A DNA stretch of 64,000 nucleotides, from the NCBI GenBank assembly GCA_014084085.1, contig NPFB01000009.1:190278-254277 (forward strand), given 5' to 3'. The notes beneath the pieces were generated by a model. It was not told the origin of the DNA, made no database searches, and saw only the letters and a program-made list of their open reading frames with translations. This DNA is from Hondaea fermentalgiana (Eukaryota; Sar; Bigyra; Thraustochytrida; Thraustochytriidae). The position numbers and the translations under genes were made by a program. Positions 6,704 through 59,575 of this stretch are shown here, one piece after another (position 1 is the first letter of the stretch; the number at the start of each line of letters is the position of its first letter).

Positions 6704-9700
6704 ATGGGCGCCTGCGGCGGAGACAAGAAGGACGCCAACAAGACGGCTCAGGTCCAGCAGGAGTCATGGCACGTCATGGACTGCGAGTCCGTGGCCGCCA
6801 AGATGGAGACCGACATGGCCAAGGGCCTGACCGCGGCTGAGGCTGCGGCTCGCCTTGAAAAGTACGGCCCTAACAAGCTTACCGAGGCTCGCAAGGCCAC
6901 CATGCTCGAGCGCATCTGGCGCCAGGTCAACAACGTCCTCGTCCTCATTCTCGCCATCGTCGCCGTCGTCTCGTGCGTCAAGGGTGGCACCAGTGAAGGT
7001 GAGGAGCGCGTCACCTCTTTTATTGAGGTCGCTCTCATCGTCGGTGTTATCATTCTCAACACCTGGATCGGCATCCGCCAGGAGGGCTCCGCTGAGAAGT
7101 CCGCCGATGCCCTCAAGGCCATGCTTTCCTCTGACGCCACCGTCATCCGCGACGGCACGCGCCAGGGCATCCCTGCCGAGAACGTTGTCGTTGGTGACCT
7201 CGTTGTTCTTGGCACCGGTGACCGTATCCCCGCCGATATCCGCCTCGTCAAGGTCTCGAACCTTGCCTCGCAGGAGGCCGCCCTCACCGGTGAGTCCCTC
7301 CCCGTTGAGAAGAAGAGCGACAAGATTGAGGCCTCCAACCCGTCCTCCGTGCCCCTCGGTGACCGCAAGAACATGGCCTTCAGCGCCACTCTTGTCTCCC
7401 AGGGTGAGGCCATTGGTATCGTCGTTGCCTGCGGTGATGACACCGAGATTGGTGAGATTAACTCCCTTGTGTCCCAGGTCGAGTCCAAGAAGACTGCCGT
7501 GCTCGTGCAAATCGACATCGTCTCCAAGTGGATCGCCATCTTCGTCGTCTGCACCGCCATCGTCACCTTCCTCGTCTACTACTTCCACGTGCCCGGTGTC
7601 CGCAACGGCCACAAGGCCCTCGAAGGTGTGTCCACCGCCCTCGTGACTTCTGTCGCCATGATTCCCGAGGGTCTCGCCGCCATCGTCACGCTTACCTACG
7701 CCTACGCCGTCAGCAACATGGCCAAGCACAACGCTATTGTCCGTGTCCTCCCCGCTGTCGAGACTCTTGGCTCCGTGACCGTCATTTGCAGTGACAAGAC
7801 CGGTACCCTCACCAAGAACGAGATGACCCTCACCTGCTTTGTCACCTCGAACGCCCGCTACAAGTTTAACACCGATGCCACCGAGCGCACGCCCTCGAAC
7901 TTTGTTCGCGAGGATTCCTTCATGGCTCACACCCGCAAGAAGGGCGAGGTCCCCGATGCCAAGCCCGAGGAGGTCAAGCCCGAGGTCAACGAGTCTAGTG
8001 GCGACGCTGCCACCTCGCCTGTCTCCGACGGCGAGTCGCCCTCGTTCGAGTTCCTCCGCTCTGCTCTTGCCGGTGGTATCGTCTGCTCCAACGCCATGCT
8101 CGGTACGGACGGTGGTCGCGACGGCGAGATCGGCAACCCCACCGAGATTGCCATCGTCCGCGCCGCCTACTTTTCTAACGCCGACTACGTCAAGATGCGC
8201 GAGGAGCAGCCCGTCATTAACCAGGTCCCCTTTTCCAGTGAGTACAAGTTCATGGCCACCCTCAGCAACCCCATCCCTGAGCTCGACAAGATCGAGGACG
8301 GCGTCGTTGTCCACGTCAAGGGTGCCCCCGATCGTCTTATCGCCATGGCCTCGCACCAGGCCAAGAACGGCGATGTTGGCGAGTCCGAGCCCATCAACCG
8401 CGACTACTGGCTCGACGCCGCGCACAACCTTTCCTCCCATGGTCTCCGCTGCCTCGCTCTCTGCCGCGCCGTCGTCCCCGCCGACGCCGCCAAGCCCGGC
8501 GAGAACCTTGGTCCCGAGTTTGTCCAGCGCGACGAGCCCTGGCTCACCATTGTTGGCATTTGCGCCATTGTCGATCCCCCTCGCCCGGAGTGCGTGCAGG
8601 CCATCAAGGAGGCCCACGGCGCTGGTGTCACCGTCAAGATGATCACTGGTGATCACCGTGCCACCGCTCTTGCCATTGGTGACCAGCTCGGAATTGTCGA
8701 CGCTGAGCACCCGGACGCCATCACTGGTCCCGAGCTCGATGACCAGTCCGATGAGGAGCTCCGCAAGACCGTGCTCACCTACAACGTCTTTGCCCGCGCT
8801 TCCCCCGAGAACAAGATCCGCATTGTCAAGGCTCTCCAGGCCGAGGGTCAGGTCTCCTCCATGACTGGTGATGGTGTCAACGATGCCCCCGCTCTCAAGG
8901 CCGCCGACATGGGTGTCGCCATGGGTAAGGAGGGTACCGATGTCGCCCGTGAGGCTGCCGAGATGATTCTTGCTGATGATAACTTTGCCACCATTGTCCG
9001 CGCCGTCAAGGAGGGCCGTGCCGTCTGGGACAACCTTCGCAAGGTCCTTCTTTTCAACACTCCCGTCAACAACGCTCAGGGTATGACTGTGCTTTTTGGT
9101 ATCATTTGCGGTCTCGAGTTCTCGCCCCTCTCCCCGATTCAGGTGCTCTACTGCAACCTCATTTGCGCCGTCACCCTCGGTTTTGTGCTCGCCGTCGAGG
9201 TCCCGGAGAAGGGCATCATGTCGCTCCCGCCCCGCCGTGTTGGCAAGCGCCTGATCGGACGTTTCCTTCTTCTCCGCATTGCCATTGGCACCGTCACTCT
9301 TGTCGCCACCACTGTTGGCTCCGTCTTCATCATGCGTGGCTTCACCAGCGACTACCTCATCGATGACTGCCCTCGCAACGACTCGGCCGATGCCGAGACC
9401 CTCTTTGATGAGTCCAGCGACTGCTTCTCCAGCGCCGCCGGTCAGCTTCGCTCGCAGGCCTCCAACACCCTCACCTTTGGTGCCATCTCCATTATGCTTT
9501 CGGCCCGCTTCGCCTACAACTCGTCCTTGCACCCGCGCATCTTCCGTGGCAACAAGTACGCTTGGTACTCTGTGGCCATCGTCGTTGTTCTCCAGATCAT
9601 GATCACCTACATCCCGGGTCTCAACGATGTTGTCTTTGGTATGAAGCCCCAGAACGGTATTGGTTGGGGCTTCACCATTCTCTTCATGATCGTCGACTTC

Positions 9701-9880
9701 CTCGTCATGGAGGCTGAGAAGGCTATCCGCCGCCACCTCAAGGGCGAAGGCTACGATACCGACGATACCCAGCCTGACCCTTACCTCGATGACGACCACG
9801 TCAACGCCCCGGAGGAGCCCTATGCGCCGCCTGACTCGGTGCGCTCCGCTACGATGCACTCCAACACCGTGCATCACTAA
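6704..9880 (+). CDS. Type II P-type cation-transporting ATPase, bacterial CtpF-like
   Basis: A 1,058-residue ATP-driven cation pump of a membrane, intronless in its coding part. In order I see an N-terminal cation-ATPase domain, the TGES actuator loop, an IPEGL motif in the fourth membrane helix, the phosphorylation motif DKTGTLT (Asp about 364), the MITGDH motif and the hinge TGDGVNDAP (about 721-729). The C-terminal helices include a segment reading [11 protein letters not shown] followed by VEVPEKGIM. In family terms that last signature resembles bacterial CtpF-type P2 ATPases more than SERCA or PMCA, because the SERCA-type Asp of helix 6 is absent. The transported ion (Ca2+, Na+ or another) cannot be assigned. 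The protein starts MGACGG, which could be myristoylated on Gly2 and palmitoylated on Cys4. Codon use is strongly biased to C-ending codons, unlike its neighbours, suggesting high expression. The chosen ATG has a good AAG context. Confidence 0.9.
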
Positions 9881-10842
9881 GTTGTTGCGAAATGGCGAAA
9901 CGAACTGTCCTGGTTCCATTACGTAGTTGATCAAGTCAGCGCCAAGGGCGAGCTGGCAAACGAAAACTATGCATGTACGCGTCCATTCCCTCCTGCTAAC
10001 AAGCTTTTCGCGCACGCCTGTGTGACAAGATTTTACGAACATGACCAACTTGCGTCCCGTCCCAGCGCGTTTTTTATAACCAAATAACAAATTACATTTG
10101 CAGAAATGATTGATCACTCACTCGCACACCTCTGGGGAGAGCTCGAAAACCTTTTTTGCTCCGTCAAGACGTAGGAATAGAGAAAGGCAGCAGCGGCCGA
10201 TTGGTTCCAGCCGCTTGTCTTGCATGACTGTGTGATTGCATTTGAGCTGGCCAGAATAAACAAGTTTTTGCCTCATGAAACAAAATCAATGCGTTCGCTG
10301 TGCACGCTTCCTAACATAAGCTTTAACCGACGGCTTTAACACAGCAAGCAGCTTCTTTCATGTTGCATTACGTACAATGTGCATCACACAAAATTGAAAC
10401 GTGTGAGATGGATTTCCAACTCCGAACCTCTTCATCACCCGCCAATCGACCCAAATCGTACACGAGAAGACGCCAAAAATTAAAGTATGAAAATTATTCA
10501 TCTCCGTATGAACGTTTTCCTAACTCATCGTCCAGCAATAGGCCTCGGGATTCTGAATAGGCCTAACATAATCCACAAGATATACACCATTTCATCGTAG
10601 CTCACCCTTAGCCGCCGTACTAGGCCTAGAAGTTCCATAATCGGATGAAAAGCAAGTATGAGCAAGGGAAAGGGGCAAGGTAAATTGCTTTACTGAAACT
10701 AGAAAAAAGAAGTCCATGCTCGCAAGATGTGAATACAGGGCGAAAACCAAGTGGATATCTTGAGCATCAATCTGAACAATGCTCCAGCGTCGCTCAATTT
10801 CTGTCTGGTCGCAGTTGCGCGATCAAGTCCGTGCATCGTTTC
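9881..10842. other. Intergenic region between convergent genes
   Basis: It contains the 3' flanks of the ATPase gene (+) and of the UBC2 gene (-). An AATAAA at 10255-10260 could be the ATPase polyadenylation signal. No ORF worth calling is present. Confidence 0.6.
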
Positions 10843-15612: not shown

Positions 15613-18600
15613 ATGATTCTCCCTCTCCCAGAACGTGCACTCAACAGTTTGGGTACTTGGTCTTCGTTGCCAGATTCACAAGAGGTCGATAGAAATGCAA
15701 ACCTGAAGCCATCGAATCCACACAGAACTTTTGAGAGAGATGCTCGTCTAAATCATCAGCGAAGAGCGCGGAAAGTATATACACAAAGGTCCGTTCTTGC
15801 TACGTGGGCATCAACTTCACTGTCAGTGCGACGAATCATTATTGTGGCCCTTGTCGCTATGTATTGTGCTGTAGGCGTATTGGCTCAGGCGCCGGCTCCG
15901 ACGCCGCAGCCAACGCAATTGCCCACACAATTGCCGACTGATTCTCCGACAGCCTTTCCGACTGATTCCCCGACAGTCTTTCCAACTGATTCTCCGACGG
16001 CCTTTCCGACTGATGCCCCGACGGCCTTTCCAACTGATTCTCCAACAGCCTCTCCAACTGATTCTCCGACAGCCTTTCCGACTGATGCCCCGACAGCCTT
16101 TCCGACTGATTCTCCAACAGACTCACCGACATACGCTCCAACTTCAGCGCCTCGCCTAATAATCCTCAACCCTGAAACGCTTTCCGTGATTGAGGGCGGC
16201 CAGAATCGGTCATACTATATTACGCTTGATTACACGCCAGTCTGGGAAGGTGATGATGTGTGCATCTCCATGTCTGTCGGTGGACTCGATCCCGAGGCAC
16301 GTGGGATCCATGTACTGCCAAACAGTACTTGTTTCACTGCCTATGGCGAGACGCAGCAGGTCAACGTACGGATTGAAAGAGACTTTATTAAGCGGGGAGC
16401 GGCAGAGACCTTTACAATCGACCACGCTGGCGTCGACGAGGCTGCAGTCCTCACAGTCCCCGTCATTGACGTTGACCAAGCATCTGTAGTCCTTTCTGCG
16501 GTATCTGGGACGATCCAACAAGGTGTCCTCGGCGGTGCCGGAGCCCAGGATGTGCAATACAATGTCTCGCTCGATAGTATACCAACACAAGATGTGACGG
16601 TGACCTTTGTCGCAGACAAGAGCTCTCTCGTGGATATCACTCCTTCCTCTCTCGTCTTTCGGCAGGGGGAAGATCCAAGCGCACAGACTGTAACCATCTC
16701 TGCTGTTGACGCATCGACCGTGGATGATGTCGTCTCTGACAGTGTTCGCATCAGTCACATAGTCGAAAGTCTCGATGCCGTATATGACGAAATCAGTGTG
16801 GCAGACTTTGTGGCCGACTGGTACGGTGCCGAGCACCCGAGAGTCATCATCTCGGCATCATCTATTGAGGTGGTCGAAGGAGATAGCGACACTGTCAGCC
16901 TTTCCATCAAGCTCGGTATTCCCCCGAGCTCAGGATCAATGAGTATTTCGCTCGCTAGTACGGAGCTCGACGGTATACCCTTAGACTTCGCCCCAACCCA
17001 GCTTACTTTCACAAGCGCCAACTTTGACACTGTACAGGCCGTCGACGTGAGTTTTCCACGAGACTACGAATACCGAGGTGCGGAAATCAATGCTCTACAA
17101 CTGAGTTTCGCTGTGGACGCCGGCAGTGCTGCCCCTTATGCAGACGAAACTCTTGTCGAGTATTGGCCTTCATCGATTGTAACAGTCAATGTTCGAGAGG
17201 TTGATCTAGCAAGCGTCTCTCTTTCTGCAATCACGGGCTCAGTGCAGCAGGGAACCATTGGCGGCGGGGGCGCGGTGGACGCTACGTACAATATCTCACT
17301 TTCCAGTATTCCGATTGCTGACGTGACAATTTCCATCGCTGCCGATCAACCTCGTCTCGTGGACATCACGCCGTCCGAAATCACCTTTCTTGCGGATCAA
17401 AGCCCTTCTCCGGCGCTCGTTACCGTATCTGCAGCAGACGCAGAGCTGGTCTCGAACGTGAGCTTCGACATTCTTCGTCTTTCTCATACTGCGTCCAGCA
17501 CGGATCTCGACTTTGATGCTGCCGACATTCCCGATTACGTCGCAGATTGGTACGGTGCGGCTCGACCCAAGGTCGTCATGTCTCTTGCGTCCCTCGCATT
17601 CGACGAGGCATCTTCTGGTGAAACTTTTTCTGTCAAGCTTGGAGCTCCGATCACAAGTGGAACCGTGACCGTAACATTGGCGAGCAGTACGCTTACAGAT
17701 GGATCCGAGCTCACCGTCTCTCCAGCCTCCCTGACCTTCACTTCTGCCAACTGGAACGCAGCGCAAGCAGTCCAGATTACGTATCCTCAAGACAACATTT
17801 ATCGTGGAGATGCTGACACCAGTTTTACGATCACTGTCGATGCTACAGGTGGACAACCTTACGCAGATTCTCAGTACGTCATCTTCTACCCGTCAGCTAC
17901 GATTGCTGTTGACGTCCATGAGGTCGATCAAGCTGCTGTTTCGCTTTCCGCTGTTGCTGGGGACATATATCAAGCTACGGTTGGCGGCAGTGATGAAGTC
18001 GATGTTACGTATACCATCAACCTTGCCAGTACGCCCACGGAGGATGTGACGGTCAGCATNNNNNNNNNNNNNNNNNNNNNNNNNNNNNNNNNNNNNNNNN
18101 NNNNNNNNNNNNNNNNNNNNNNNNNNNNNNNNNNNNNNNNNNNNNNNNNNNNNNNNNNNACGTATACCATCAACCTTGCCAGTACGCCCACGGAGGATGT
18201 GACGGTCAGCATCACTCCTGATGACACGTCACTGGTCAGCGTCTCGCCTGCATCGGTCACATTCGCGGCGGATACGAGCCCTTCAGCTCAGACAATCACG
18301 GTCTCGGCAGCCGATCCGACCGTAGTGACAAACGTGACGTCTGCTTTGCTGACGCTCAGTCACGCCGCGACAAGCTCCGACAGCTTTTACAACGGTATCG
18401 CGATTCGTAACTTTGTCGCAAACTGGTATGGATCGCCTCGACCAAGAGTTCTAATGTCGAGATCTGCGCTTGAGATCGATGAAGACTCCTCAACCGGCGA
18501 TAGCTTCACTGTCAAGCTTGCTGTGGAGCCTACAAATGGCGATGTTACCATTTCGCTGGTCAGCAGCGCTCTCAGCGATAGTTCAGAGCTGACCATTTCT

Positions 18601-21600
18601 CCGGCGTCGCTTACGTTTACGTCTTCTGACTGGGACACTGCGCAGACGGTTCAGGTCACGTATCCCAAAGATGATGTATATCGGGGAGAAGCCGACACTA
18701 GCTTTACGATCGCAGTCAGTGCAAGTGGAAGCGAGCCATACGCAGACTCTCAGTACGTCATCTACTATCCATCAAGTTCGATAGCAGTCGACGTCCACGA
18801 GGTCGATCAAGCTGCTGTTTCGCTGTCCGCTGTTGCTGGGGACATCTATCAAGCTACGGTTGGCGGCAGTGATGAAGTCGATGTCACGTATACCATCAAC
18901 CTTGCCAGTACGCCCACGGAGGATGTGACGGTCAGCATCACTCCTGATGACACGTCACTGGTCAGCGTCTCGCCTGCATCGGTCACATTCACGGCGGATA
19001 CGAGCCCTTCAGCTCAGACAATCACGGTCTCGGCAGCCGATCCGACCGTAGTGACAAACGTGACGTCTGCTTTGCTGACGCTCAGTCACGCCGCGACAAG
19101 CTCCGACAGCTTTTACAACGGTATCGCGATTCGTAACTTTGTCGCAAACTGGTATGGATCGCCTCGACCAAGAGTTCTAATGTCGAGATCTGCGCTTGAA
19201 ATCGACGAGGGTTCCTCAGCAGGAGACACATTTACCGTCAAGCTCGCGGTGGCCCCAAGCAATGGCGATGTTACCATTTCGCTGGTCAGCAGCGCTCTCA
19301 GCGATAGCTCAGAACTGATTATCTCTCCGACGTCGCTTACGTTTACGTCCTCCGACTGGAATACCGCACAAACGGTTCAAGTCACGTATCCCAAAGATGA
19401 TGTATATCGAGGAGAAGCCGACACTAGCTTTACGATTGCAGTCAGTGCTAGTGGAAGCGAGCCATACGCAGACTCTCAGTATGTCATCTATTATCCATCA
19501 AATTCGATAGCAGTCGACGTCCACGAGGCTGATCAGGCTGTCGTGACACTCTCGTCCACAACCGGGACGATCCGGCAAGGCGCTATTGGCGGCGCTGGTG
19601 CCGTTGATGCTACTTACACCGTCAACCTCGCAAGCGCGCCGACGCAAGAAGTGACGATTAGCATCATCGCGGACCAAGCCTCACTCGTCACCATTTCACC
19701 AGACATACTGACTTTTCCTGCAGGTCAAAGTCCATCCGCTCAAATCGTTACAATTTCAGCGGCTGATGCCACGGCAGTGACCAATGTAACCTCTGCGCTG
19801 TTAACATTGAGTCATACAGTGACGAGCGGGGACACCTCTTACGATGGCGCCGTGGTCAATGACTTCGTTGCTAACTGGTACGGTTCTGCCAGGCCCAGAG
19901 TCTCCGTCTCGACCTCTTCAATAGACATTGTTGAGGGGGCAAGCTCGCCCGCAAGCATGTCCGTCAAGCTTGATGTTGAGCCCAGTGACGGCCCCGTAAA
20001 CCTCACGCTCACCAGCTCCTTGCTCGCAGATGGCTCAAGCCTCGACGTAAGCTCGGAGCTCCTTGTGTTTACAACCGAGAACTGGAGCTCCGAACAGGTC
20101 GTAGAGGTTCAGTATCCCCGAGACTTTGTGTACCGTGGTGCCAACACCTTCTCTTTCCAACTTGAACTCGCCGTAGTCGAAGGCAGCAGCGAGCCGTACA
20201 TGAACGAGTCTTACGTTCTCTTTTGGCCAGACTCCACGATTGATGTCACTGTTCGCGAGGCCGATCAGGCATCCGTGACCATTTCTGACCTTACCGGCAC
20301 CATTCGCCAAGGCGCAATCGGTGGCGCGGGTGCTCAAGATGCAACATACACCATGTCGTTGACAAGCGTCCCCGAGGACAACGTCACGATCAGCATTACG
20401 CCGGACAATGAGTGGCTCGTGGACATTACACCAAGCGAAATTGTCTTCTCAGCTGGTGTCGCACCGCCTGATGTGCTCGTGACCGTAGCTGCCAAGAGCG
20501 CGACGCAAGTTGCAAATGTCAGCTTTGACGTTCTTGTAGTATCGCATAGTATTTCCACGACAGACTCTAACTATGCCGCCATCGACATTCCCGACTTTGA
20601 GGCAAGTTGGTATGGTGCAGCACACCCACGGGTCGTTCTTTCGGCAGCCGCAATCGATGTTGTGGAGGGCACTGAAGTGGCAAGCATATTTTACGTCAAG
20701 CTTGGAGTTCAACCAAGCAGTGACGACGTTAGTGTTGATTTTGCAAGCAGCATCCTCGAAGATGGGTCCGCTCTCTTGATCGACCCAACCTCTGTGAGCT
20801 TTAGCATGACGGACTGGGATACGGAGCAGCCGGTGCGGGTCACCTATCCCCGAGACTACGAGTACCGTGGAGCGGAAGTCACCTCGTTCCAGGTTCTACT
20901 CAGCGTCGGAGCAGGCAGTGGTGAGCCTTATGCTGATGCACAATACGTTCAATTTTGGCCTACCTCTCAGGTCGAGGCTAGAGTTTATGATGCCGACCTT
21001 CCTGAAATTGTCCTTTCTGAACAGACAGTGTATGTGACAGAGAATGGGCAGTCGGCCCAATACGAGCTCGTTCTGAATTCACGACCTGCGCAGGATGTGA
21101 ATGTGAGCATTGCCAATCCAAACTCGGATTTGGTGGGTCTCAACACGACCTTGGTCGTCTTCACCAGCGCAGACTGGGACATTCCGCAAACGATCCGTGT
21201 CGTTGCAATCGAGTCCGAGGATGACAACGCCTACGACCTTGCTTCCGCCATCACCATCCTTCAACACAGCGCCGCGAGTAATGACACTTCTTACGATGGT
21301 GTCTCTGCGCGCTTTTCCCCATCGCAATTGCTCATTGTGCGAAGGTACGAAGACCCGACCATCCCTAACTGTCCTGGAGGAACCTATCTCACGGGCGAAA
21401 CAAGTCTCGAGTGCGTTGCCTGTCCCGCAGGCTACAAATGTCCGGTCGAGACCAATGACCCGGCGCCCTGCTTGCTTGGTTCCTTTAGTATTGGGGCCCA
21501 GGTCAATTGCACGCTCTGTCCGAGGGGCATGCGGTGTCCGCAAACAAACTCGAACTCGATGGACGCGTGTGCGGCGGGCACGTATTCCATCGAAGGGCAA

Positions 21601-24600
21601 GCCGACTGCACGATTTGTCCCGCGGGCAAACAGTGTCCTTCGACGGATTCAGATGTTGTTCAGGACTGCCCGTCTGGGTCATATTCTCTCGCAGGCTCAC
21701 AAACATGCACAGTTTGCCCTGCCGGGAAAGCCTGCCCTGATCCCACCGGGGTCACAATCCATACCTGCGAGCCTGGCACCTATACCGAGACTGGCATGAC
21801 TTCATGTGTGGCGTGTCCTGCAGGCTATGCATGCACTGACGTCACGCGTGCGCCCATTGAGTCCGAAGCATGCGAGCCTGGAACCTTTGCCGGACCCGAA
21901 TTGGGCAACACCTTTTGCACGGAGTGCCCCGCTGGCTACTCGTGTCCCTACACGGACGACGACACGATAATTGCTTGTGCTTCCGGAGAATACTCTGCGC
22001 ACGGTAACTCGACATGTACCCAGTGCCCTGCGGGCATGGACTGTACACCGGAGAGTGGTCCTGGCAACGTTTGCCAAGAAGGAACATACTCTCTTTTGGG
22101 AGACGCAAATTGTCATGATTGTCCAAGGGGACACAAGTGCCCGACGAATTCGGCCCAACCGGTCGAATGTAACATGGGATCCTACGCAGCAACGACGCGA
22201 CACACCGCATGCTCAGCATGCCCTGCCGGGAGCTTTTGTCCCACCAACGCAACCGAGTCACCGCAGATTTGTCCTGCAGGAACATACAGTTACGAAGGTG
22301 CAACAAGCTGCGAAGACTGCGACGCGGGCTACTATTGCGAGGAAGGAGCCGTCAGCCCAACTCCTGTAAACGACGAATGTGAAGCTGGCACCTACTGCCC
22401 TTCTGGTGGGCCCCAATTTAATTGTCCTGCTGGGTCGTATGGAACAAAAACAGGTGGAGTCTCCGCTGATGATGCTTGCGATCCATGTCCCGCTGGGTAC
22501 TATTGCCCTGAGGGTTCAACTGATGCGACGAAGATCGAATGCACACCGGGATACTATTGTCCGCAAGGAACAAGTGTGGAGACGCAGTATCCGTGCTCAG
22601 CAGGATACTACAATCCAGATGGCGGAAGCGTTGCAGGCGGTGCTTGCCTTATCGTTCCGGAAGGTCGGTACGCGTACGCAGGGTCGAGCCAACACTATCC
22701 ATGCCCTTCAGGATACTACTGCCCAGAGGGCACAACGCACGAGCACGAGTTCCCCTGCGCGGGCGGAACGTATTCGGGAATTGCAACGGAGCTTAAGTCT
22801 CAGGATGACTGTCTTACCTGTACCGTTGGTCATTACTGCCCAAGCGGCTCGATCACGCCTACGGCATGCCCAGTGGGCAGCTACAATCCTACAACGGGAG
22901 GCTCTTTGCTAACCAATTGCCTTGCCTGTCCAGCAGGATACACGTGTCCCAATACAGGCATGAATGACTATACGCAGATTCGGTGTCAGGCGGGTCATTA
23001 TTGCCCTTCTGGAAACTATGACATTGACGCGTTTCCATGCCCCGCTGGAACGTATACAGATGACGATGACCTTCAAAATGCGCAAGCCTGCACACCTTGC
23101 CCTCCAGGCTATGCTTGTCTCGAGGGTACCGGCGGAAGCGTCGCAAAGCTCGACTGTGCGGTGGGTCACTATTGCCCCGAGGGAACCACTTACACAACGC
23201 AGTACGATTGCCCGAGAGGATCGTATACCGTGTCGACAAGTCTCACGGACGTCGACGAGTGCACTCCATGTCCTGCGGGAAGTTACTGCGAAGGTGGGCT
23301 TGGCCGTATCGGTGCAATTGGAGACGTTGATGGCCATTGCAGCCCCGGTCATTATTGCCCCGCCAGCACGTATGAGCCAAACCAGTTCCCGTGCCCAGAC
23401 GGTACCTACACGGCAAGCGTGAGCCTCGAGAGCGAGGATCAATGCACGCCATGCGATTTGGGTCATTATTGTTTCGACGCTGCCACCTTTCCAGTCCCGT
23501 GTCCCGCGGGCTCTTATGCGAATGAGACCGGTGAAAGCGACGACTTGTGTACTACGTGTCCGGCGGGCTACGAGTGCCCCGAAGGTACAATTGACCCCAT
23601 CCCCTGTCAGCCAGGCAACCAGTCAGCCTCGGGTCAGGATGCTTGCGACACGTGTGAGGCTGGGTACTTTTGCAAGACCACCGCGACGACGCGCGAGCTC
23701 ATGCATGCTCAGCCTTGCAGTCCAGGACTCTATTGCCCAGAAGGTGTGGCGATCGAGCCTAGCTTTGCTCAGCACGCTTGTCCTGATGCGCACTATTGCC
23801 CACAGGCTATTCCAGCGCCGCTAGAGTGTCCTGTCGGAACTTACAACCCCGTGACGGGCCAGGGGTACCTCGAGAACTGCACGGCCTGCGACCCTGGTTA
23901 CTACTGTATTGTGCAGAGTAACAGTGTTACTGGCGAGTGTGATCCTGGACACTATTGCCCTGCTGGCTCGACCGGCCCGATGCAATTTCCTTGTCCTGCT
24001 CGCACCTACCGCACAACTTCGCGCGGTGAGTCGGAGAATTCATGTTCCATTTGCACCAGTGGATACTATTGTGAGGTGGCGACTGTTGATCCGGTCATCT
24101 GTCCAAAGGGCTACTATTGCTTGACAGCCTCGTCCGCACCGAAAGCGTGCCCGATTGGGCGGTATGGCAACTTCACGGGCCTTACCAGTGGCGCTGCCTG
24201 TACGCCTTGCCCCGGTGGCTATTACTGCGATGGCCAAGGTCTAACGCAGCCCACAGACCTCTGCGATGAAGGCTACTATTGCATGGAAGGCTCGTATACC
24301 TCGACGCCCAATGCGGCGGGGACAAATTGGACGTACGAGCTGGGCGATGAGCTCGAGTCGGCTTTGGTGTTTGCTGACATTGGTGACATTTGTCCTCCCG
24401 GCTACTTTTGTCCTCGAGGTTCAGCAATGCCTATTGCCTGCGATCCTGGAACTTTCAACTCCGTCGAAGGGGCAACTTCCAGTGATGCCTGCCTCGACTG
24501 TACCCCGGGCCACTACTGTGCGGGTGCAGGCAATGCTGTTCCAACCGGCCTTTGCGAACCTGGATACGTGTGCCCTGGAAGGTCGGAGGACCCGACCGAT

Positions 24601-35054: not shown

Positions 35055-35371
35055 TCTCAGCGCTACGTCTGCTCGAGTTTTCCTCGGACTGTCTGGTCTC
35101 TTTGGCCTTGCCTTGCTTTGCCTTGCTTTGTCTTGCTGCCAAGGTAAGTCACGTGGTCACATATGATTCGCTCATACACAAGGCTAAGCCTAGGTCTAGC
35201 CTATGTCATCTGGCTCAATCCAGAGATCAGCAGTCATACTAGGCTCGCAGTGAAGTGCCTCTGCACGTATCGTCATAACGGATATGATTGTGCGTAGTTT
35301 TGTATTGGAAAAAAAATTGTCATATAATATAATTTATGTTACCGGAATCAATACCATTCTGTTCTCCTAAG
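35055..35371. promoter_or_regulatory. Short bidirectional promoter region
   Basis: 317 bp separate the start codons of the CEP164-like gene (-) and the PX-VPS9 gene (+). It includes TTGCC/CTTTG-rich repeats near 35100-35140 and an AT-rich stretch near 35300-35335. It should serve both genes. Confidence 0.5.
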
Positions 35372-37456
35372 ATGGCGAGTCTGCTTGCAGAGGTAGGCCA
35401 CGACTGCAATCTACAAACTACGTCGACAATTCTGTCCCTTGAAAGTATCATGGCGGGGACCAGGGGATCAAGCTGGCGGCCTCCGCCGCCGCTGCCGCCG
35501 CCTGTGCCTCCACGTACGTATCGTGAGCACTGGTTTGTGGTCGACGGCAAGCTGCGTCCAAAAGTCCCGCAGAGACCACCTCCCGGGCGAGTCCCAAAGC
35601 TTTACGAGCAGCTGGCCTTCGTGTCTGTTCCGGCCACGGGAATCAAGTCTGATCTTCATGACCGCGCGCAAAAAGCGTTCACAATGTATTATATCCAGGT
35701 CGACTGCAAGAATGGGTGCGGATGGACTGTGCAGCGCCGCTTTCGTGAACTATTCAAATTCGCGCTGCGAATCAAGCATATACGCAAATCGGGAGTCGAT
35801 CACAATGTAAAATTCCCCAGTAGGTTCTCACGTAAAGCTTCTCTCTCTAGCACACTAATTGAGCAGCGTCGACGGGGCATTGAGGTATTTTTGAGCGCTT
35901 GCGTGCAGAGTGTGGCTCTTGCAAATCCTGCCCAGAACTGGCAGGACGTCGGTAGGGCATTGGAGGAGCTCTTCCTTATGCAAGACAATTACCGGACATC
36001 CTCTATTGACTTCAAGCCTCGAATTCCGTATGGAAGCTTCCAGGTAAAGTCGACACCCTCGGGACTACTCATCGATGCTGATGCGAAAACGCTGCAAGCC
36101 CAAGCGCTCATGCGTCACGCCTTGACAAGGCAGTCTCGCACTATCGAGCTGCCCAGCGCAAACGTTGAACGCAGACGAAAGCTTTCTTCATCTTTAAGGT
36201 CTTCGGCAAAAGGCGATCCGGCGGAGAACGTCTGCCTGAAACTGGGGCGCCTCGTTGCAATGCAGCAGGGCCAGGTCGATCGTTTTGCGTCCAAAATGCT
36301 CCAGATCTACCCAGCACGAGATCTTGAGGTTGCCGAACGTCGTTTGCGCGAGTCTCCGACAGATTCACTATCCGCACGTCCATCCTTTCGAGATTTATTC
36401 CGCAAAAAAAGAGATCCCGGCCGTAGGACCGGATCCAACCATATCGCCACTACACCATTGTTGTCAACAACGCCGTCACACGCTTCAGCGTCGAGGGACG
36501 ATGGAACTGCATCCCCAGCATCTGGCAGAGCCGAGGAACTTTTGCACAGAGTGCATCGCTTTCTTACCCAAATTTCGTGGAAGCTGGTCGAAGCGAATCC
36601 AGACACTGTAAATGAAAGCAAAGAGTTTGGTTTTGACGCCGACTTTTGCTTTGACATGACTCACCGCCTGTTCGAGGCAGCTCTTCTCGAGAGGCACGGA
36701 GACTTGGCGGAGAGACTCCTCTTTGCTGCGTCAGCATGCGCAGCAGCCTTTGAAGATGATTCGCTTGTGCACGAGAAGCTCTGCGACCTTCAGAAAACGT
36801 ACCGGGGCCGTGGCATCCCCCCTGCACTTTTTGGAGCAAAGGCCCACCCCCAATTCTGTACAGATGCCAGTTGCGGAAAGGAGCTTGGACCTGGTAAATC
36901 TTTTGCTTGGGGCTGGGAGGAGGCTGTGGAGGTGATGAATCGTCTTACGAACGAGAGTCTTCCAACGGCCAAAGTGGAAACTATACTGGAATGTGTGGCA
37001 GAGATCCATCGTGGAATCGCAAGTTCGGCTGCAATCACCATGAGCATCCACGAAGAAGACGCAATGGGTGTCTCGTCAGATGGCATTGAGGACGCCGCTT
37101 CTTTCCATATTGAAACAAAGAGCGAGGACACAGGAGCAAGGTCTAGATTGGAAAAAGATGCCACAGAAACTTTAGCTGAGACGACGGAGCTTGAGGAATT
37201 GGACGGAAGTGCGGAATCGATCTCTCCGTCTCCGACACGTCAAACGATGCCTTTCAAGACGCCAAAGGCCGTTGGCGCAGACGACTTTGTCCCTATTTTC
37301 ATATATGTCATTGCCTGCTCAAATTTGCGCCAGCCGTGGACTTTGCACAAGTTCATGTCGACACTGGCGAGTGACTCGCTTCTGTCCACGGAGGCCAAGT
37401 ATTGGCTCACGGTTCTCGAAAGTGGTCTTTTCTTTCTTGCCAATGCTGAATTTTGA
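35372..37456 (+). CDS. PX and VPS9 domain protein, probable Rab5-family exchange factor
   Basis: 694 residues. After a proline-rich N terminus (PPPPLPPPVPP at about 43-53), a PX domain spans roughly 95-200: YYIQVD..., the phosphoinositide-binding motif RRFREL, and IEQRRRGIEVFL. The C-terminal part matches the VPS9 fold that loads GTP on Rab5-type GTPases: AVEVMNRLTNESLPTAKVE, then DDFVPIFIYVIACSN and STEAKYWLTVLESGLFFL at the very end. PX plus VPS9 would place the exchange factor on PI3P-rich endosomes. A Ser/Thr-rich loop (about 585-640) interrupts the VPS9 region and is larger than usual. The ATG at 35372 (AAGATGGCG) was preferred to the in-frame ATG at 35336, which has a poor context; a third in-frame ATG lies at 35450. 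Confidence 0.78.
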   Translation: MASLLAEVGHDCNLQTTSTILSLESIMAGTRGSSWRPPPPLPPPVPPRTYREHWFVVDGKLRPKVPQRPPPGRVPKLYEQLAFVSVPATGIKSDLHDRAQKAFTMYYIQVDCKNGCGWTVQRRFRELFKFALRIKHIRKSGVDHNVKFPSRFSRKASLSSTLIEQRRRGIEVFLSACVQSVALANPAQNWQDVGRALEELFLMQDNYRTSSIDFKPRIPYGSFQVKSTPSGLLIDADAKTLQAQALMRHALTRQSRTIELPSANVERRRKLSSSLRSSAKGDPAENVCLKLGRLVAMQQGQVDRFASKMLQIYPARDLEVAERRLRESPTDSLSARPSFRDLFRKKRDPGRRTGSNHIATTPLLSTTPSHASASRDDGTASPASGRAEELLHRVHRFLTQISWKLVEANPDTVNESKEFGFDADFCFDMTHRLFEAALLERHGDLAERLLFAASACAAAFEDDSLVHEKLCDLQKTYRGRGIPPALFGAKAHPQFCTDASCGKELGPGKSFAWGWEEAVEVMNRLTNESLPTAKVETILECVAEIHRGIASSAAITMSIHEEDAMGVSSDGIEDAASFHIETKSEDTGARSRLEKDATETLAETTELEELDGSAESISPSPTRQTMPFKTPKAVGADDFVPIFIYVIACSNLRQPWTLHKFMSTLASDSLLSTEAKYWLTVLESGLFFLANAEF

Positions 37457-41203: not shown

Positions 41204-41303
41204 NNNNNNNNNNNNNNNNNNNNNNNNNNNNNNNNNNNNNNNNNNNNNNNNNNNNNNNNNNNNNNNNNNNNNNNNNNNNNNNNNNNNNNNNNNNNNNNNN
41301 NNN
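41204..41303. other. 100-N assembly gap
   Basis: Exactly 100 N, flanked by GC-rich low-complexity DNA (GCGCGCGAGGCGCGCC on the right), the sort of sequence that breaks assemblies. Confidence 0.99.
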
Positions 41304-42859: not shown

Positions 42860-45427
42860 TCACCAGTTGTCCCAGTCATCATCATTGCCGTCTCCAGATT
42901 TTGCCACAGGTCGAGCAACAGCCTTGGCCTTTGCTTTCTCCCGCCGTTGTGCAATACGCTGACGGGCTTCCTCGCGCTTGCGCGCGCGGTCTTGTGAAGT
43001 GTTCGAAGCTTCGCTCAGACTCGGACTCGGTGTGCGACCTCGAGGTTTTGGCGCAGAGAGGCCCAGCTTGCGTGCGGATGCCGTCGAAGGCGCGCGAGGG
43101 ACCTTATTTGCGCCAGTAGATTCCGCAAAGAAGTCATCACTCGATCCGGGAAGCACAAGTTTCGATGCGCTCCCTTGCGATTTAAATGACGGTGCCTCCG
43201 TGACCGCCAGAAGATCATCGTCATCGTCGTCATCATCTCCCCAGCCACCACCACTCGTGGCGTTGTCATCGTCGTCGACGTCGTCATCATCATCCCCCCA
43301 GCCTTCGCCACCGTCGTCCAGAGCTGGAGCTGCCAGTTTCGAAGACTTGAGAGAGAGACCCTTGCCTGGTGCCGACGACGGTCGTGACACAGGCGCAGAA
43401 GGCGGCGGAGTCGTGCTCGCGGGAGGCAAACCAGGTGAGGGCGAGGCCGGAACGCTTCCTGCCGAGCTGGGCACGCTGCCCGTCGAACTCGATGTCCATG
43501 TCCGTGAAAGCGAACCCGCCCAACCAGCGGCCTGTGAAAAGAGACCCGAGGCAGCATCCGAACCAGCGCCGCCTGTTAGTGAAGAGAGCGACGACGAAGA
43601 AGAAGACGAACCCACCGCACTCGCACTAGCATTGGGTCCAATCTGGTTTCCTTGGCGAGTATCCAGGTCGCGTTTCTTGGCCTCTTCGGCCTCGCGGCGC
43701 TGGTCTTCCGCTCGCTTGACAGAAATGGTCCGCAGGTCCCCAACGCATTTGTCGACAATCTGAAAGCCCAGTTCGCGAACTTCCGGAGCCGGATCAATGA
43801 GCGCGTACGCGAGCGGCGGAATCACCTTTCCAGCAAGAGAAGGAGCATCGCCCTCTAGGTACACGAGACCTGCCTTGAGACCTCGGAGACCAGCTAGACG
43901 CGCTGGTACAAAGGGATCGCGCACAACCTGCGGAAAGGAGGAGAGAATGATTTTCTTCCGTGTCTCCTCATTAAATTGCCCCAAAAGCTTGTTGAGGCAA
44001 ATGAGTGTGTTGGTGCGAATCGCAGGCTCCTTGTCTTGCAAGCTTTGCACAAGGTGACGCAAAAGGGTCTCATTGAGCGTCTTGGGAGCAAGATGAGGAG
44101 CTAAAGAGACCATGAAGCGAATGGTGAGCTCCCGCAGCATTGGCGCTGCGTCCCGAAAGCCTGTGCAAACCTGGGGAAAGAGCTGGTCATTGATAGTCTT
44201 GGGATCAATGTACTCGACAAACTTGGCCAGGTTCTGCAAGAGCGCAGCGCGCAGCCCACGGTCCTGCGATGCGAACAGGTCGAGGAGCGTTGGTACGACC
44301 ATGCGACGCAGCTCGTCCTTGTCGTCCATGGAGGAGGCAATCTGCAGGTAGGGTACAAGCAGCATGGACGACAGTGGGCTGAGACGCAGCGCGGAGGACG
44401 ACGAATTAGCAGCGCCTGGCACTGGAGCTATGCCAGCTCCACCAGGCGTGGTGTAGCGGAAAGCGTTTGCGAGAGCAGGGAGAATCTTGAACCAGTTGGT
44501 TTCCTTAGGAAGGCGCGGAGTGACCTCGGCGAGCTTCTGGATAAAAGGGGCGCGTTCAGCGTCGGTCTTTAGCTGTAATTCCTCGAGGAAGGAAAGCGTG
44601 GAGAAGAGCTCGCTGCGGAAAAGGTACTTGAAGCTTGGATGTCGGAGAAGGCTCTTACAGTCTGGACGATCAGAGGGTGTGTCGGCAATCATAAGGTTGT
44701 AAACCTTTTGAAGCTGCGAAGGAAGCGCGCGGGTGTTTTTGAATTCGTTGGGATCGTTTACGGGTCCGTTAAAGCACTCGAAAAGCACGCAGCCGAGAGC
44801 AAAGACGTCAACCGTGTGTGGCCCTCCCGAGGATGTGTTCATGAAACTCCACTTGTTGGCGAGACGCTCAGGCGGCTTGTACTTGCTGGGAAGGATATCT
44901 GGGTTTTCGCGAAAGAGACGGTCAGGTCCCGTGGGGTCCATTTCGCCGACAATGTAGAACCCTGCCAGCTTCCAGTCGCCGCCTCGCGTCACGAGGATGC
45001 TCTGGAGCGAGATGTTGCCATGACACAGCTTGCAGTCTTCATTGAGGAACCCGAGCGCCTGAAGGATGGCGTTGAATCCCCATCCGACAGCCATCTTGCG
45101 CTTTTCCGCAGCGCCATCCTGCTCGCCGAAGCGCTCGAGCCAGCACTCGAGCGTCTCTACGGCGTCTGTGACGATGAAGATCTCCGCGTCCGAGTCGATG
45201 CCGTCTCTGTACGCAATCACGTGGGGGTGTCGCAGCGTCTTGGCGCGCTTGAAGAAGTTCTCTGCGAGCTCCTTCTCCCTCGTCCCGGCGCTCTTCTTGT
45301 CAAACTTGAGCACGCTCACCGGCTCGTTGGACTTCTTCTTGCGACCATCGTGCAGGACCCACCCGCCACCCAGCGAGCACACGCGCTCTCCGACGTCGTA
45401 AGGGAGCGCGGAGCTCTTGTTGCCCAT
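42860..45427 (-). CDS. SCYL1: SCYL1-like pseudokinase with HEAT repeats
   Basis: 855 residues. Family members act in COPI-dependent Golgi-ER traffic. Residues about 1-290 form a kinase fold lacking catalytic motifs: the HRD equivalent reads CHGNIS and the DFG equivalent AGFY, so catalysis is not expected. Residues about 330-600 are HEAT-type repeats (VVPTLLDLFASQDRGLRAALLQNL, and RHLVQSLQDKEPAIRTNTL), as in SCYL1. The C terminus is disordered, acidic and Ser/Pro-rich, with two GWGDDDD motifs, a charged helix (about 810-835) and the ending DDDWDNW. It begins MGNKSS, a good N-myristoylation signal that I do not recall from animal SCYL1. The frame is open upstream to 45922, but the ATG at 45427 begins the conserved protein and avoids overlap with the divergent TRIP4 gene. 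Confidence 0.88.
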   Translation of the reverse strand: MGNKSSALPYDVGERVCSLGGGWVLHDGRKKKSNEPVSVLKFDKKSAGTREKELAENFFKRAKTLRHPHVIAYRDGIDSDAEIFIVTDAVETLECWLERFGEQDGAAEKRKMAVGWGFNAILQALGFLNEDCKLCHGNISLQSILVTRGGDWKLAGFYIVGEMDPTGPDRLFRENPDILPSKYKPPERLANKWSFMNTSSGGPHTVDVFALGCVLFECFNGPVNDPNEFKNTRALPSQLQKVYNLMIADTPSDRPDCKSLLRHPSFKYLFRSELFSTLSFLEELQLKTDAERAPFIQKLAEVTPRLPKETNWFKILPALANAFRYTTPGGAGIAPVPGAANSSSSALRLSPLSSMLLVPYLQIASSMDDKDELRRMVVPTLLDLFASQDRGLRAALLQNLAKFVEYIDPKTINDQLFPQVCTGFRDAAPMLRELTIRFMVSLAPHLAPKTLNETLLRHLVQSLQDKEPAIRTNTLICLNKLLGQFNEETRKKIILSSFPQVVRDPFVPARLAGLRGLKAGLVYLEGDAPSLAGKVIPPLAYALIDPAPEVRELGFQIVDKCVGDLRTISVKRAEDQRREAEEAKKRDLDTRQGNQIGPNASASAVGSSSSSSSLSSLTGGAGSDAASGLFSQAAGWAGSLSRTWTSSSTGSVPSSAGSVPASPSPGLPPASTTPPPSAPVSRPSSAPGKGLSLKSSKLAAPALDDGGEGWGDDDDDVDDDDNATSGGGWGDDDDDDDDLLAVTEAPSFKSQGSASKLVLPGSSDDFFAESTGANKVPRAPSTASARKLGLSAPKPRGRTPSPSLSEASNTSQDRARKREEARQRIAQRREKAKAKAVARPVAKSGDGNDDDWDNW

Positions 45428-45833
45428 GCTTGGTCCTCGCCTCTCGCCGCCGCCCCCGCGCTCTCGAGCCAGCCCGCGCGAGCTCTCCGACGCGAGCGAG
45501 CTCTGCTCTTTCACTTGCCACGCTGGTCTGGTCCCTCGACGCGACTGTCTCCGGCGGTTTGGCCCACTGTGCGCGAGGCGCAGCGCAAGTGGCCCTTCTG
45601 CGGCGCCAAGTGCGCTATTTGGCCCATTCCCGACTTGCGCGCGCCTCCGCAGAACAGGCCTCGAACGGGCACTCGAGGCAGCAGAAGCAAAGCGTGAGCA
45701 AGAGCAAGACGGCATCGGCGGCGACGAGGCATCGACGGCACGGAGCAGAGCAGAGCAGAGCAGAGCATAGCGGTACGTCGTACTCTCGAAGCCTGCTGGT
45801 TGTGTCGTGGGCGCACTTGCAAGAGAAGCGAAG
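45428..45833. promoter_or_regulatory. Bidirectional promoter region of SCYL1 and TRIP4 genes
   Basis: 406 bp between divergent start codons. GC-rich, with a GAGCA/GCAGA repeat at about 45745-45770 near the TRIP4 side. Confidence 0.5.
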
Positions 45834-46742
45834 ATGATCAACGAGGCGCGGGCGCGGGAAGGCTTGCGCGACTTTCTAGGCCTCGACGGCGAGCAGCTCG
45901 ACGGTCTCCTTGAACACCTCAAGACGCAGAAACCGGCGGAGGTTCGCGCCTACCTCGGGGCCCTGCTGCCGGACACGCCGCCGATTCGCGACTTTATCGC
46001 ACAGGTGGTGGGCGATGCGTCCAAGTCACGAGGCGCTTCAGGCGCCAGCGAAGCCCCCAAGGAAAGCAAAGCTGCCAAGTCAAAGGACGGCGCCAAGGCG
46101 ACCAAGTCGAACAAGGCCACGAAAGCAAAGGCAAAGTCGTCTTCTGCCAAGTCGGCAGCCGCTGCTGCGCCTCCTCAGCCCCCATCTCGCACGGCGGCCG
46201 AAATGGCCGAGTTCGAGAAGCGCAAACGCAATCGCCGCATCATCACTGGAAACGAGGAGAAGCGGCGCGACGCCGTCGTGCAAAACTGTCTTGAATGCGG
46301 CATGATCTACTACACCGAGGAGTACGCCAAGCTGTCGCGTTGCGTGTATTGCGACGACCCTCTTGGCAAGGGTCAAGCTCGACGGGCGCAAGATCGTCAG
46401 CAAACGCAGGACGAGGCTTTTTCGCGAGCTTTGGCGCACCGCGACAAGCTCTTGGACTTTGACACCTCTTCAGCGGCTCGGACCAAAGTCTATGATGATC
46501 AGTCTGACTATTTTGAGATGGATCTTGATGTGATGGACTCCAAGTGGGCCACTTCTGCAGAAAAGGCCGACATGCAGGCGCGGGTCCAGGCTCACAAGGA
46601 TGCCGAGGAGGAGGCAAGTCGTAAAATCCACCTCACGCTCGACATTGCAGGTCGTCGCGTCGTACAGCAGGACGCCTCTCTCCGCGGCACAGCTGCCGGT
46701 GCTGTTTACGATTCAATTTCTGCGGCACTGGCTCGCTCATAG
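45834..46742 (+). CDS. TRIP4/ASC-1-like zinc-finger protein lacking the ASCH domain
   Basis: 302 residues. A C2HC5-type zinc finger is visible (NCLECGMIYY...LSRCVYCDDPL, about 156-183). After it comes the conserved TRIP4 segment: AHRDKLLDFDTSSAARTKV, YDDQSDYFEMD, then IHLTLDIAGRRVV (about 200-280). In animals TRIP4 is a subunit of the ASCC complex, which acts in ribosome quality control and alkylation repair, with transcription coactivation also reported. The N terminus is a helical stretch (GLRDFLGLDGEQLDGLLEHLK) that could be the conserved ASCC-binding part, followed by a Lys/Ala/Ser linker. Animal TRIP4 is about 580 residues with a C-terminal ASCH RNA-binding-like domain; here the protein stops just after the zinc-finger module. 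The start was placed at the first ATG (AAGATGATC). Confidence 0.83.
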   Translation: MINEARAREGLRDFLGLDGEQLDGLLEHLKTQKPAEVRAYLGALLPDTPPIRDFIAQVVGDASKSRGASGASEAPKESKAAKSKDGAKATKSNKATKAKAKSSSAKSAAAAAPPQPPSRTAAEMAEFEKRKRNRRIITGNEEKRRDAVVQNCLECGMIYYTEEYAKLSRCVYCDDPLGKGQARRAQDRQQTQDEAFSRALAHRDKLLDFDTSSAARTKVYDDQSDYFEMDLDVMDSKWATSAEKADMQARVQAHKDAEEEASRKIHLTLDIAGRRVVQQDASLRGTAAGAVYDSISAALARS

Positions 46743-48859: not shown

Positions 48860-49546
48860 AGCGAATTTTTTAGGCGTATACGTATACCATTTATTTTCTT
48901 TTGATTTCCTACATGTTCTAAGCTTGAACTTGTTCCTTTCTTTGGCCGAGGGCATCTTGTTCCCACCTTTGCACGCCCCTTGCCGTCCTCGAGCAAAGCC
49001 GGTCGGCCAGTCAGATAGCTTCGATTATTTTTCCGTTTCGCTACGCAATCTCGGAGACTCGGAGTCCGAGTCAGGCCAAAGTAAAGTTTTGGTTTCTATT
49101 TTTCCGTTTTGAGAACGTGGAAACCCCCCACAGACAGGCAGTGGGAGAGAGAGAGAGAGAGACAGAGAGACAGAAAGAGAGTCAGACCGTGCACGTGTTC
49201 ACGTATGCTAATGGTGCATAGGCTTATCATAACGCCATGGGAATCGTCCCACCCGCGTCGGCAGTCCGCGCTGACGGTCCCGCGCCAAGACTGGCCCGCA
49301 GAGCCAGCCGGGGAACGTGCCTGCCGCGGCCTTTTGCGAGGTGAGGTGAGGTTCGGCCTGTCTCGAGACGGACAAGACGGACAAGACGGCCGCGGCTCCT
49401 TCCCTTTCCCCCCTTATCCTGCCCGGACCTGGACCCGGCTCAGCAAGGCAGCAAGCAAGCAAGCAAGCAATCTCGCAATCTCGCAATCTCGCAATCTTGT
49501 ATCGACGACAGAAGAAAGGTGGGAAAGCAAAGGATCGTCGCGGACC
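48860..49546. other. Intergenic region, JmjC-like to DD3-3-like gene
   Basis: Contains GAGA repeats at about 49145-49180 and AAGC and TCTCGCAA repeats at about 49449-49500. No supported ORF. Confidence 0.6.
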
Positions 49547-57589: not shown

Positions 57590-58930
57590 CTACAAGGTGG
57601 CCTCCGTCTCCTCTCCCTTGTCTTTCGCTTTTCCGAAAGCAGACTTGGGGACGCCGGCCGAAGTTCTGTCACTGTCGGGCTCAGCCGACGCCTTGTTCTT
57701 CATGTTCTTGTTCTTGTTCTTGTTCTTGCCCGTATCATCCGTTGCCACAAAGGTCATTTCCTTCATTTGACGCAAGGGCTTGGTCAAGCCTTCCATGATG
57801 CTTGGCATTTGTTTGACAACCATTTCAATGACTGCAGCCTTGCCAAACTTATCGTAGGCGTCCGCTTTCTGACGAAGCGCGTCCGCTTCGGCCTGACCTT
57901 GCGCCAGCGTCACATCGGCGTCAGCCTCTCCAAACGCGCGGACTTTGGCTGCATTGGCCTTTGCGAGAATCTGCACGCCAGTTGCCTCATGCTTTTGCGC
58001 CAGTACGCGCGCTAACGAGTACCCCTCGCGCTCGCGCTGCGAGCGCTTCACGGTCAGGTCAGTGATTTCGATTCTGATGGTTTCGCGAACCTGGTTCTGA
58101 AGCGCCTTCTCGCGCACGAGCTTTTGCTTCTGGCGAGCTTCTTCGATTTTGTACGCATTGCGCGCTTCGGCCTGCGCTTGGTTGACTTCTCGATTATAGG
58201 CTGCTCGTTTAAGCTTAAGATTGCGATCTGATTCTGCTTCGAGCTCACGTGATGAGTTGATTGAAACATGAGCTCGTTGCGAGATGCCAGCCTCTTCGCT
58301 GTTCGCGTCAGCGTTGTAGCCTGCAACGGCCTTGCGTGCGCTTGCGTCGTGCTGTGCACTACCTTCCTCTGCTTCGCGCTTGACAATTGCGGTCTGCGTC
58401 ACGCCCAACGAGTCGAGATACCCGTCGAGATCGCTGACCGCTGTAACGACGTACGAGCACAAGTCAAAGCCCAAGGCGCGCAAGTCTGGAATCACGTGAT
58501 CCTTGACAACCTGCGAAAAGGCATTACGGTCTTTGTACAGCTCTTCTACTGTGAGACCACCCAGAATTTCTCGCTGATATCCTTCGAGTGTGGCGCGGAG
58601 AGAATCGCGAATGGTCTCTTGTGAGTCGCTAAGAAAGTGGTTCACGGCAATTTGAATGGCCTCTTCGTTGGGCTTGTGCACCTTGCGGTCCTCATGCAGT
58701 TCAAAGGCTTTCACCTTGACCTGGGCGATGCCAGTAATATTGACGCGGACGCCCTTGGCCGTTTCTGCGTCTGTACTTTTTATTTCGAGCGTCATCAGGC
58801 CCAGGTCGAGCCTTTCCACGGACTCCACGACCCACCATCGGAACGTCGTCGACCCCACGTGGATGCTCGTGCCCCTGCACCCGAACTTGACGACGGCCTC
58901 GTTCGGCCCGCTCGTCACGAAGTTCCCCAT
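57590..58930 (-). CDS. Flotillin (SPFH-domain membrane scaffold)
   Basis: 446 residues. The N-terminal SPFH/band-7 domain (about 1-190) opens MGNFVTSGPNEAVVKFG, closely following flotillin-2. The second half is the flotillin coiled coil with repeated Glu-Ala pairs (REVNQAQAEARNAYKIEEAR, then AKANAAKVRAFGEADADV) and a conserved end VIEMVVKQMPSIMEG. Flotillins form oligomeric scaffolds on the cytoplasmic face of the plasma membrane and endosomes. Gly2 with Thr6 could be myristoylated, but the Cys4 that is palmitoylated in animal flotillin-2 is Phe here. The last 50 residues are a Lys/Asn repeat (KNKNKNKNMKNK) and a charged tail. The frame is open upstream to 59176 without conserved sequence, so the ATG at 58930 was chosen. 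Confidence 0.93.
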   Translation of the reverse strand: MGNFVTSGPNEAVVKFGCRGTSIHVGSTTFRWWVVESVERLDLGLMTLEIKSTDAETAKGVRVNITGIAQVKVKAFELHEDRKVHKPNEEAIQIAVNHFLSDSQETIRDSLRATLEGYQREILGGLTVEELYKDRNAFSQVVKDHVIPDLRALGFDLCSYVVTAVSDLDGYLDSLGVTQTAIVKREAEEGSAQHDASARKAVAGYNADANSEEAGISQRAHVSINSSRELEAESDRNLKLKRAAYNREVNQAQAEARNAYKIEEARQKQKLVREKALQNQVRETIRIEITDLTVKRSQREREGYSLARVLAQKHEATGVQILAKANAAKVRAFGEADADVTLAQGQAEADALRQKADAYDKFGKAAVIEMVVKQMPSIMEGLTKPLRQMKEMTFVATDDTGKNKNKNKNMKNKASAEPDSDRTSAGVPKSAFGKAKDKGEETEATL

Positions 58931-59575
58931 CTCGCGCTCTCCCGGACCCGCTCTTCCCCGCTCGCTGGCGCCTGCGCTGCTCTCCGCGGCCGCGCGCGCG
59001 GGTTTACGGGGCGAGGGACAAGTGAGGCGAGCGAGCCTGGCTCGACGCAAGCCGCGGGGCCCCGCGGTCGGCGGCCCGCGGCTGCGTCTCACCAGCGGCG
59101 CGCCACGACGACCCGAGAAAACCAAATGGGTTTGCACTGGCCGGACGATGAAAGTTTCAAGTCTCGTGTTGGTCATGCACGTGTAAAGTCACAAGAAGAC
59201 AGGCACATCACCCAACTTGCCTCTTCTGCTTTCGCAATGTGGCACCGCGCAGTCATCGCACGCAAGACCCGAAAGTTAATGGCGGCGACGAAGGACTCTG
59301 CGAACTCTTGCTCATACTATATATGTGTGAACACCCCTTGCTATCACGTGTCTTGCATCGAGTTTGGGGAATTAGGAAAGCCAACGGGTCGTCGAATAAA
59401 ACCTCCCGCCATCGTCGCGATTGCAAGGCTCTCATGGATATACTCCGAAAGCAGTCACATCTTGGAATGGTATAAGTTTGGAGACGATTCGAGGGAACCA
59501 AAAGAGAGGGAAAGAAAAAAAAGAGTTTGAAAATGGGAGAATAGGTAAAGTCCTAACTAGAGCCTGGGCTTGCTC
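58931..59575. other. Intergenic region upstream of flotillin and 3' flank of the GYF gene
   Basis: The left part is GC-rich and should hold the flotillin promoter. The right part is AT-richer 3' flank of the GYF-domain gene. ORFs on the plus strand are shadows of the flotillin coding region. Confidence 0.6.

Follow-up and report, generated by a model that had tools for sequence, protein, structure and literature searches.

What kind of protein is encoded by the long open frame that occupies the forward strand of a stretch of DNA from the thraustochytrid Hondaea fermentalgiana (contig NPFB01000009.1, positions 190,278 to 254,277; hereafter the window, 64,000 nucleotides long)? This frame runs uninterrupted from ATG to stop at positions 15613-32595, comprising 5,660 codons (5,676 residues from stop to stop), and had been interpreted in a first-pass annotation as the gene of one giant product, Cys-rich outside, with a single membrane helix and a long helical inside, which could not be assigned to any nameable family. 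The order of its parts stands and recurs in relatives; the product as a whole, however, is no isolated case, for 30 proteins form a widespread family that has not been catalogued. It is well supported that the Hondaea protein is a member of this apparently old family of giant single-pass surface proteins.

The family and its distribution

Three protein searches, giving 9 matches among 4,376 candidates, 13 among 646 and 11 among 3,725, led to 30 distinct proteins, including the deposited copy of the Hondaea gene itself (P0001). Their named sources are a thraustochytrid, two species of Phytophthora, Vitrella and nine invertebrate animals (Antedon, Anneissia, Diadema, Asterias, Glandiceps, Owenia, Branchiostoma, Elysia and Dreissena), and P0030 may come from a ciliate. 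Public names for the members are 'uncharacterized', 'hypothetical' or misleading, the records of P0001 and P0003 being named SVEP1 and MYH16 pseudogene and that of P0030 bearing just a number. No paper describing the family was found in the open-access literature, closed literature lying outside that scope.

The recurring order of parts is a Cys array, a Cys linker, a cupredoxin-like domain, a membrane helix, a charged tail and a C-terminal domain. The profile of the membrane region (A2, built with 16 of the 30 proteins), which has a hydrophobic helix at its end, matches all 30 proteins and the Hondaea frame, and the C-terminal profile (A1, built with 15 of them) matches 26 of the 30 plus the Hondaea frame, after the charged helical rod; the four others, P0008, P0009, P0021 and P0030, do not match it convincingly. 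In P0018, P0019, P0023 and P0029, 304 residues or fewer precede the helix, so that these proteins are without the Cys array. The C-terminal domain is present in 15 of the 19 proteins found with the membrane region and, conversely, all 13 proteins found with the C-terminal piece of Antedon as sole query carry the cupredoxin-like domain and the helix, Hondaea itself being retrieved at an E-value of 6e-7. Since searches in both directions agree, the linkage of the two core domains rests on more than one search. Each of these two domains has a single match in the source genome (36 Mb in 238 contigs, the scope of all searches of the organism's own genome mentioned here).

A tree of 30 rows places the nine animals in a single clade (support 100/100) and groups the four echinoderm rows (99/95). 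It is unrooted; of its 27 inner branches, 14 have good support and 8 are weak, and two long branches meet in it. The single animal clade, and the location of four animal members on contigs of more than 26 Mb, speak against contamination or recent transfer as the origin of the animal members, behind which a very old transfer may nevertheless lie. No vertebrate was among the matches, in searches that need shared words of five residues and similar lengths and consequently do not imply absence. The same order of parts in invertebrates and distant protists is unusual for a giant receptor-like protein. As a separate observation, P0005 of Phytophthora cactorum (7,929 residues) also lists PF00855 and PF00628, perhaps following a fusion in its gene model.

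Core domains, loop and helical tail

The features of the frame are as follows, with pLDDT standing for the predicted local distance difference test.

15613..32595, +, whole frame, 5,660 codons plus stop, 100 N inside
15829..15891, +, signal-like hydrophobic stretch, about residues 73-93 (hydropathy), with an unusually long N-terminal part ahead
15898..16158, +, PT-repeat stalk, residues 96-182 (Pfam PT, E 3e-11)
16159..21342, +, paired beta-type units, residues 183-1910 (7 YRG-type marks)
18060..18159, no strand, assembly gap of exactly 100 N within the beta units, residues 816-849
21343..26472, +, GCC2/GCC3-type Cys array, residues 1911-3620 (180 Cys; relatives match PF07699)
26473..26919, +, Cys-containing linker, residues 3621-3769 (alignment A2)
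26920..27414, +, cupredoxin-like membrane-proximal domain, residues 3770-3934 (predicted model, fold matches)
27010..27066, +, disordered polybasic R-x-L loop RRVRRQRRRL, residues 3800-3818 (pLDDT below 50 at model positions 186-200)
27454..27528, +, membrane helix, residues 3948-3972 (hydropathy, predicted model, A2 profile)
27739..27894, +, juxtamembrane stretch, residues 4043-4094 (likeness to animal members by eye only)
28000..31302, +, charged helical rod, residues 4130-5230 (hydrophobic period 3.74; clearest copy of a 47-residue motif at about 4203)
31618..32007, +, zincin-like domain, residues 5336-5465 (profile A1, predicted model, fold matches)
31879..31893, +, HCLAH, residues 5423-5427, at the HExxH position, catalytic Glu absent
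32293..32577, +, last charged helical stretch, residues 5561-5655 (composition)

Two of these features had been overlooked in the first-pass annotation, namely the cupredoxin-like domain with its R-x-L loop and the zincin-like C-terminal end. The former is predicted to have a cupredoxin fold with the disordered loop inserted, the latter to have a zincin fold of the WLM/minigluzincin type; neither matches a family in the copy of Pfam that was searched, and a search of solved structures by sequence with both domains returned nothing convincing. Cupredoxins that bind copper have conserved His and Cys ligands, and a copper function was rejected here, as none of the columns of A2 that are invariant or nearly so has a His. 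An active peptidase was likewise rejected, because the catalytic Glu is missing from all 26 distinct proteins compared (16 rows of A1 and 10 others), two Phytophthora members also missing the second His.

Although the sequence of the loop otherwise varies, R-x-L is kept in 26 of the 30 family loops, with RRLL in nine of the 30 and no RR in 13. The S1P pattern is present in 24 of the 30, versus 4.5% of random windows, while the furin pattern R-x-[KR]-R is limited to five loops, Hondaea's among them, which discounts furin as the general protease. By analogy, the R-x-L motif may resemble a convertase site situated within a domain, comparable to the S1 site of Notch. Regarding the protease, no P-domain was found in the genome by a search whose control responded in 1 of 14 cases, and nothing was found for S1P via PF23001, which was silent in all 14 controls too. 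The genome has seven subtilase frames, none of which matches an S1P-specific Pfam model at E-values up to 0.01 or is recognised as furin- or S1P-type. One subtilase domain of this genome (L007, G000:C238:75961-76635) lies within a frame of 3,794 codons.

The membrane helix had been placed near 27456-27531 and its failure named as a point that would overturn the first interpretation; it holds, with a predicted helix and a hydropathy of 2.39 at its peak (residues 3954-3972), and is the only strongly hydrophobic helix besides the signal-like stretch, placed by hydropathy at residues 75-93. The tail of about 1,690 residues beyond it has 2 Cys and no sequon for N-glycosylation (3.3 are expected from composition), compared with 34 sequons in the ectodomain. 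This tail does not contain the charged coiled-coil rod proposed earlier, at least of the heptad kind: in all 18 tails examined out of 30, the hydrophobic period lies at 3.66-3.78 residues, whereas the arms of SMC proteins from the same genome, analysed with the same script, gave 3.48-3.52 in 8 of 8 cases, so that a canonical heptad coiled coil is ruled out for the rod. A flotillin stretch in the window showed no clear hydrophobic period. Packing of the 15/4 or 11/3 type, or single helices, are the options for the rod, whose helicity is suggested by composition and period rather than by a structure model.

A motif of 47 residues recurs along the tails. With seeds taken only from Antedon and a threshold of 10, it gave 47 matches in 18 of the 25 other tails, against 2 in reversed tails and none in shuffled ones; it gave none in 4,488 residues of the SMC control, for which the seed window was shifted by one residue, with 48 tail matches in that setting. 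The Antedon-seed run is the fair test, as the iterated motif was trained on the tails that it scored, and Hondaea has one clear copy (residue 4203) with these seeds, versus seven in the trained version. NCBIfam returned for the C-terminal part only coiled-coil-like chance matches, below cut-off.

Extracellular arm, gene model and neighbouring genes

The stalk, paired beta units and cysteine-rich modules described initially are all present. The YRG-type marks of the beta units are usually spaced by 242-244 residues, the first spacing being 227. No relative of these units was found among solved structures by sequence search, and their identification as fn3_6 was rejected: the whole protein scores 46 bits, yet no stretch passes alone. 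The motif CxxGxxC occurs 53 times across the whole protein. Ephrin_rec_like/GCC2-GCC3 (PF07699) is not listed at E-values up to 1 for either half of the Hondaea frame, but relative P0012 matches it at 24.7 bits (cut-off 23.1) and the Cys arrays of the two proteins align. A second site in the genome (L002, G000:C197:33766-33938) has 70% DNA identity with the stretch of the PT stalk. The words ephrin, EGF, GCC2 and cysteine-rich do not occur in the main text of a proteome paper on Aurantiochytrium (PMC12221091), which in that portion gives no support to the protein as a candidate for the ectoplasmic net.

The frame is open throughout, as had been claimed, but the length of 5,660 residues probably does not stand, owing to the assembly gap inside it. 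An identical sequence of 53 nucleotides abuts the 100 N on either side, and the YRG-type marks straddling them are 292 and 293 residues apart, spacings that return to 241-242 once the N run and the duplicate, together 51 codons, are subtracted. The excess of about 51 residues and the duplicated 53 nucleotides suggest that two overlapping ends were probably left unmerged here, which would make the real protein about 5,609 residues long, some 51 fewer than the frame; it is possible that whole beta units are absent from the assembly at this point. The deposited NCBI model P0001 (5,181 residues) is identical over the 441 residues searched, but begins at residue 220 of the frame and omits five internal stretches, one of which is the gap region. 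Three others lie in the Cys array, and the aligned relatives P0002 and P0003 contain them; over this part the uninterrupted frame therefore has better support than the exons as deposited. The absence of introns is suggested by the open frame itself, and the 74 residues ahead of the signal-like stretch leave the true start codon uncertain.

Elsewhere in the window, a second run of exactly 100 N, also an assembly gap, lies at 41204-41303. A frame for a cation-transporting P-type ATPase (6704-9880, +; Pfam) is faced by one of 1,117 codons on the opposite strand (6764-10117, -), probably a by-product of codon use. Other neighbouring frames (35336-37456, +; 42860-45922, -; 49109-51940, +; 57590-59176, -; 59576-63505, -) have Pfam domains of PX and VPS9, kinase and HEAT, SH3, flotillin and GYF, with no evident link to the giant protein.

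Possible function and comparison with known systems

How could these parts work together? The reading that we tentatively favour, at somewhat less than even confidence for the whole, is that of a cleaved mechanical linker from the outside to the cortex, or a contact sensor or mechanoreceptor. It starts from what was observed in the frame, the part order, the family, the single genome matches, the loop motif and the lost Glu, and from two folds and a loop position that are predicted by models. The long extracellular arm of PT stalk, beta pairs and Cys array would stand on the cupredoxin-like domain outside the membrane, and a convertase of subtilase type might cut the flexible loop during export, after which the cupredoxin-like fold would hold the arm non-covalently to the membrane part. 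Inside, the charged non-heptad rod would run from the membrane to the zincin-like domain, a non-catalytic head that might serve for docking or self-association at the cell cortex. The first-pass annotation had suggested that the protein could tie contact with matrix or prey to the cortical or basal-body cytoskeleton. A bolder version, which we consider unlikely, is a force-sensing receptor older than animals, in which pulling would strip the cut, non-covalently bound ectodomain and a helical rod, right-handed or straight (period 15/4 or 11/3), would pass the event on to the dead peptidase as a signalling or docking head; if true, a trick like that of Notch would have had a separate, or an earlier, origin in a family common to stramenopiles, alveolates and invertebrates.

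The same parts would also fit a tether or adhesin that is never cut, forming a static link from matrix to cortex or part of a cell coat, with the R-x-L loop serving for sorting or structure. The length, the PT stalk, the beta units and the Cys array are in keeping with such a spacer or adhesin, and two facts weigh against cleavage: the genome searches did not identify the protease, and the 13 loops already mentioned have no RR at all. The conservation of R-x-L, and of RRLL in some members, within a disordered and otherwise variable loop speaks against this static alternative, which we regard as doubtful but a real contender. Thraustochytrid and oomycete cells settle on surfaces, which would suit instead a signalling receptor for secretion or feeding, similar to the complex of the apicomplexan CRMPs and using its helical tail as a scaffold. 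CRMPs are indeed giant Cys-rich proteins that act at host contact, but have nine membrane domains (PMC9815656) instead of the one in the Hondaea family, which moreover is present in animals that do not feed in that way; such a receptor appears improbable. Finally, neighbouring genes or misjoined contigs could have been read as one frame, a suspicion raised by the gap in the beta units and by the later start of the NCBI model. Yet this gap sits in a periodic repeat with the same frame on both sides, and the part order recurs in separately sequenced genomes, including the four animal members on very long contigs; we have therefore discarded the artefact as a main explanation and give it very little credence. 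The family is a directly testable candidate for coupling outside contact to the cell cortex, its carriers including echinoderms and amphioxus, groups with laboratory species.

Compared with known systems, we file the protein as a variant of giant surface receptors in which the two core domains are uncatalogued. CRMPs, set beside the family by description only, are the closest Cys-rich giants described in the open-access literature found: they are surface proteins of very large size whose modules are Cys-rich and ephrin-receptor-like (PMC9815656), but the Hondaea frame has one helix, with a long helical tail behind it. A likeness by name only is that to the GCC2/GCC3 domain proteins of Babesia bovis, which are called after such modules (PMC9843837). 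The predicted fold of residues 3770-3934 resembles that of plastocyanin and pseudoazurin, from which the family differs in having no conserved His for a copper site and a long, loop-bearing insertion between strands. Similarly, the fold predicted for the C-terminal domain resembles that of Wss1, abylysin and selecase, with HxxxH on the corresponding helix, while all 26 family members compared are without the catalytic Glu of these peptidases. In Notch, the loop containing S1 is disordered and the structure of its domain is retained after cleavage, within a regulatory region of LNR repeats and HD (PMC2726630). The family may share with it a convertase site in a disordered loop of a membrane-proximal domain in a single-pass protein. 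However, a cupredoxin-like domain takes here the place of HD, the inside consists of a helical rod that leads to a zincin-like domain, and no LNR or HD family of Pfam is listed for the Hondaea frame or the members of A2. The resemblance to Notch would be a likeness of working, not of descent.
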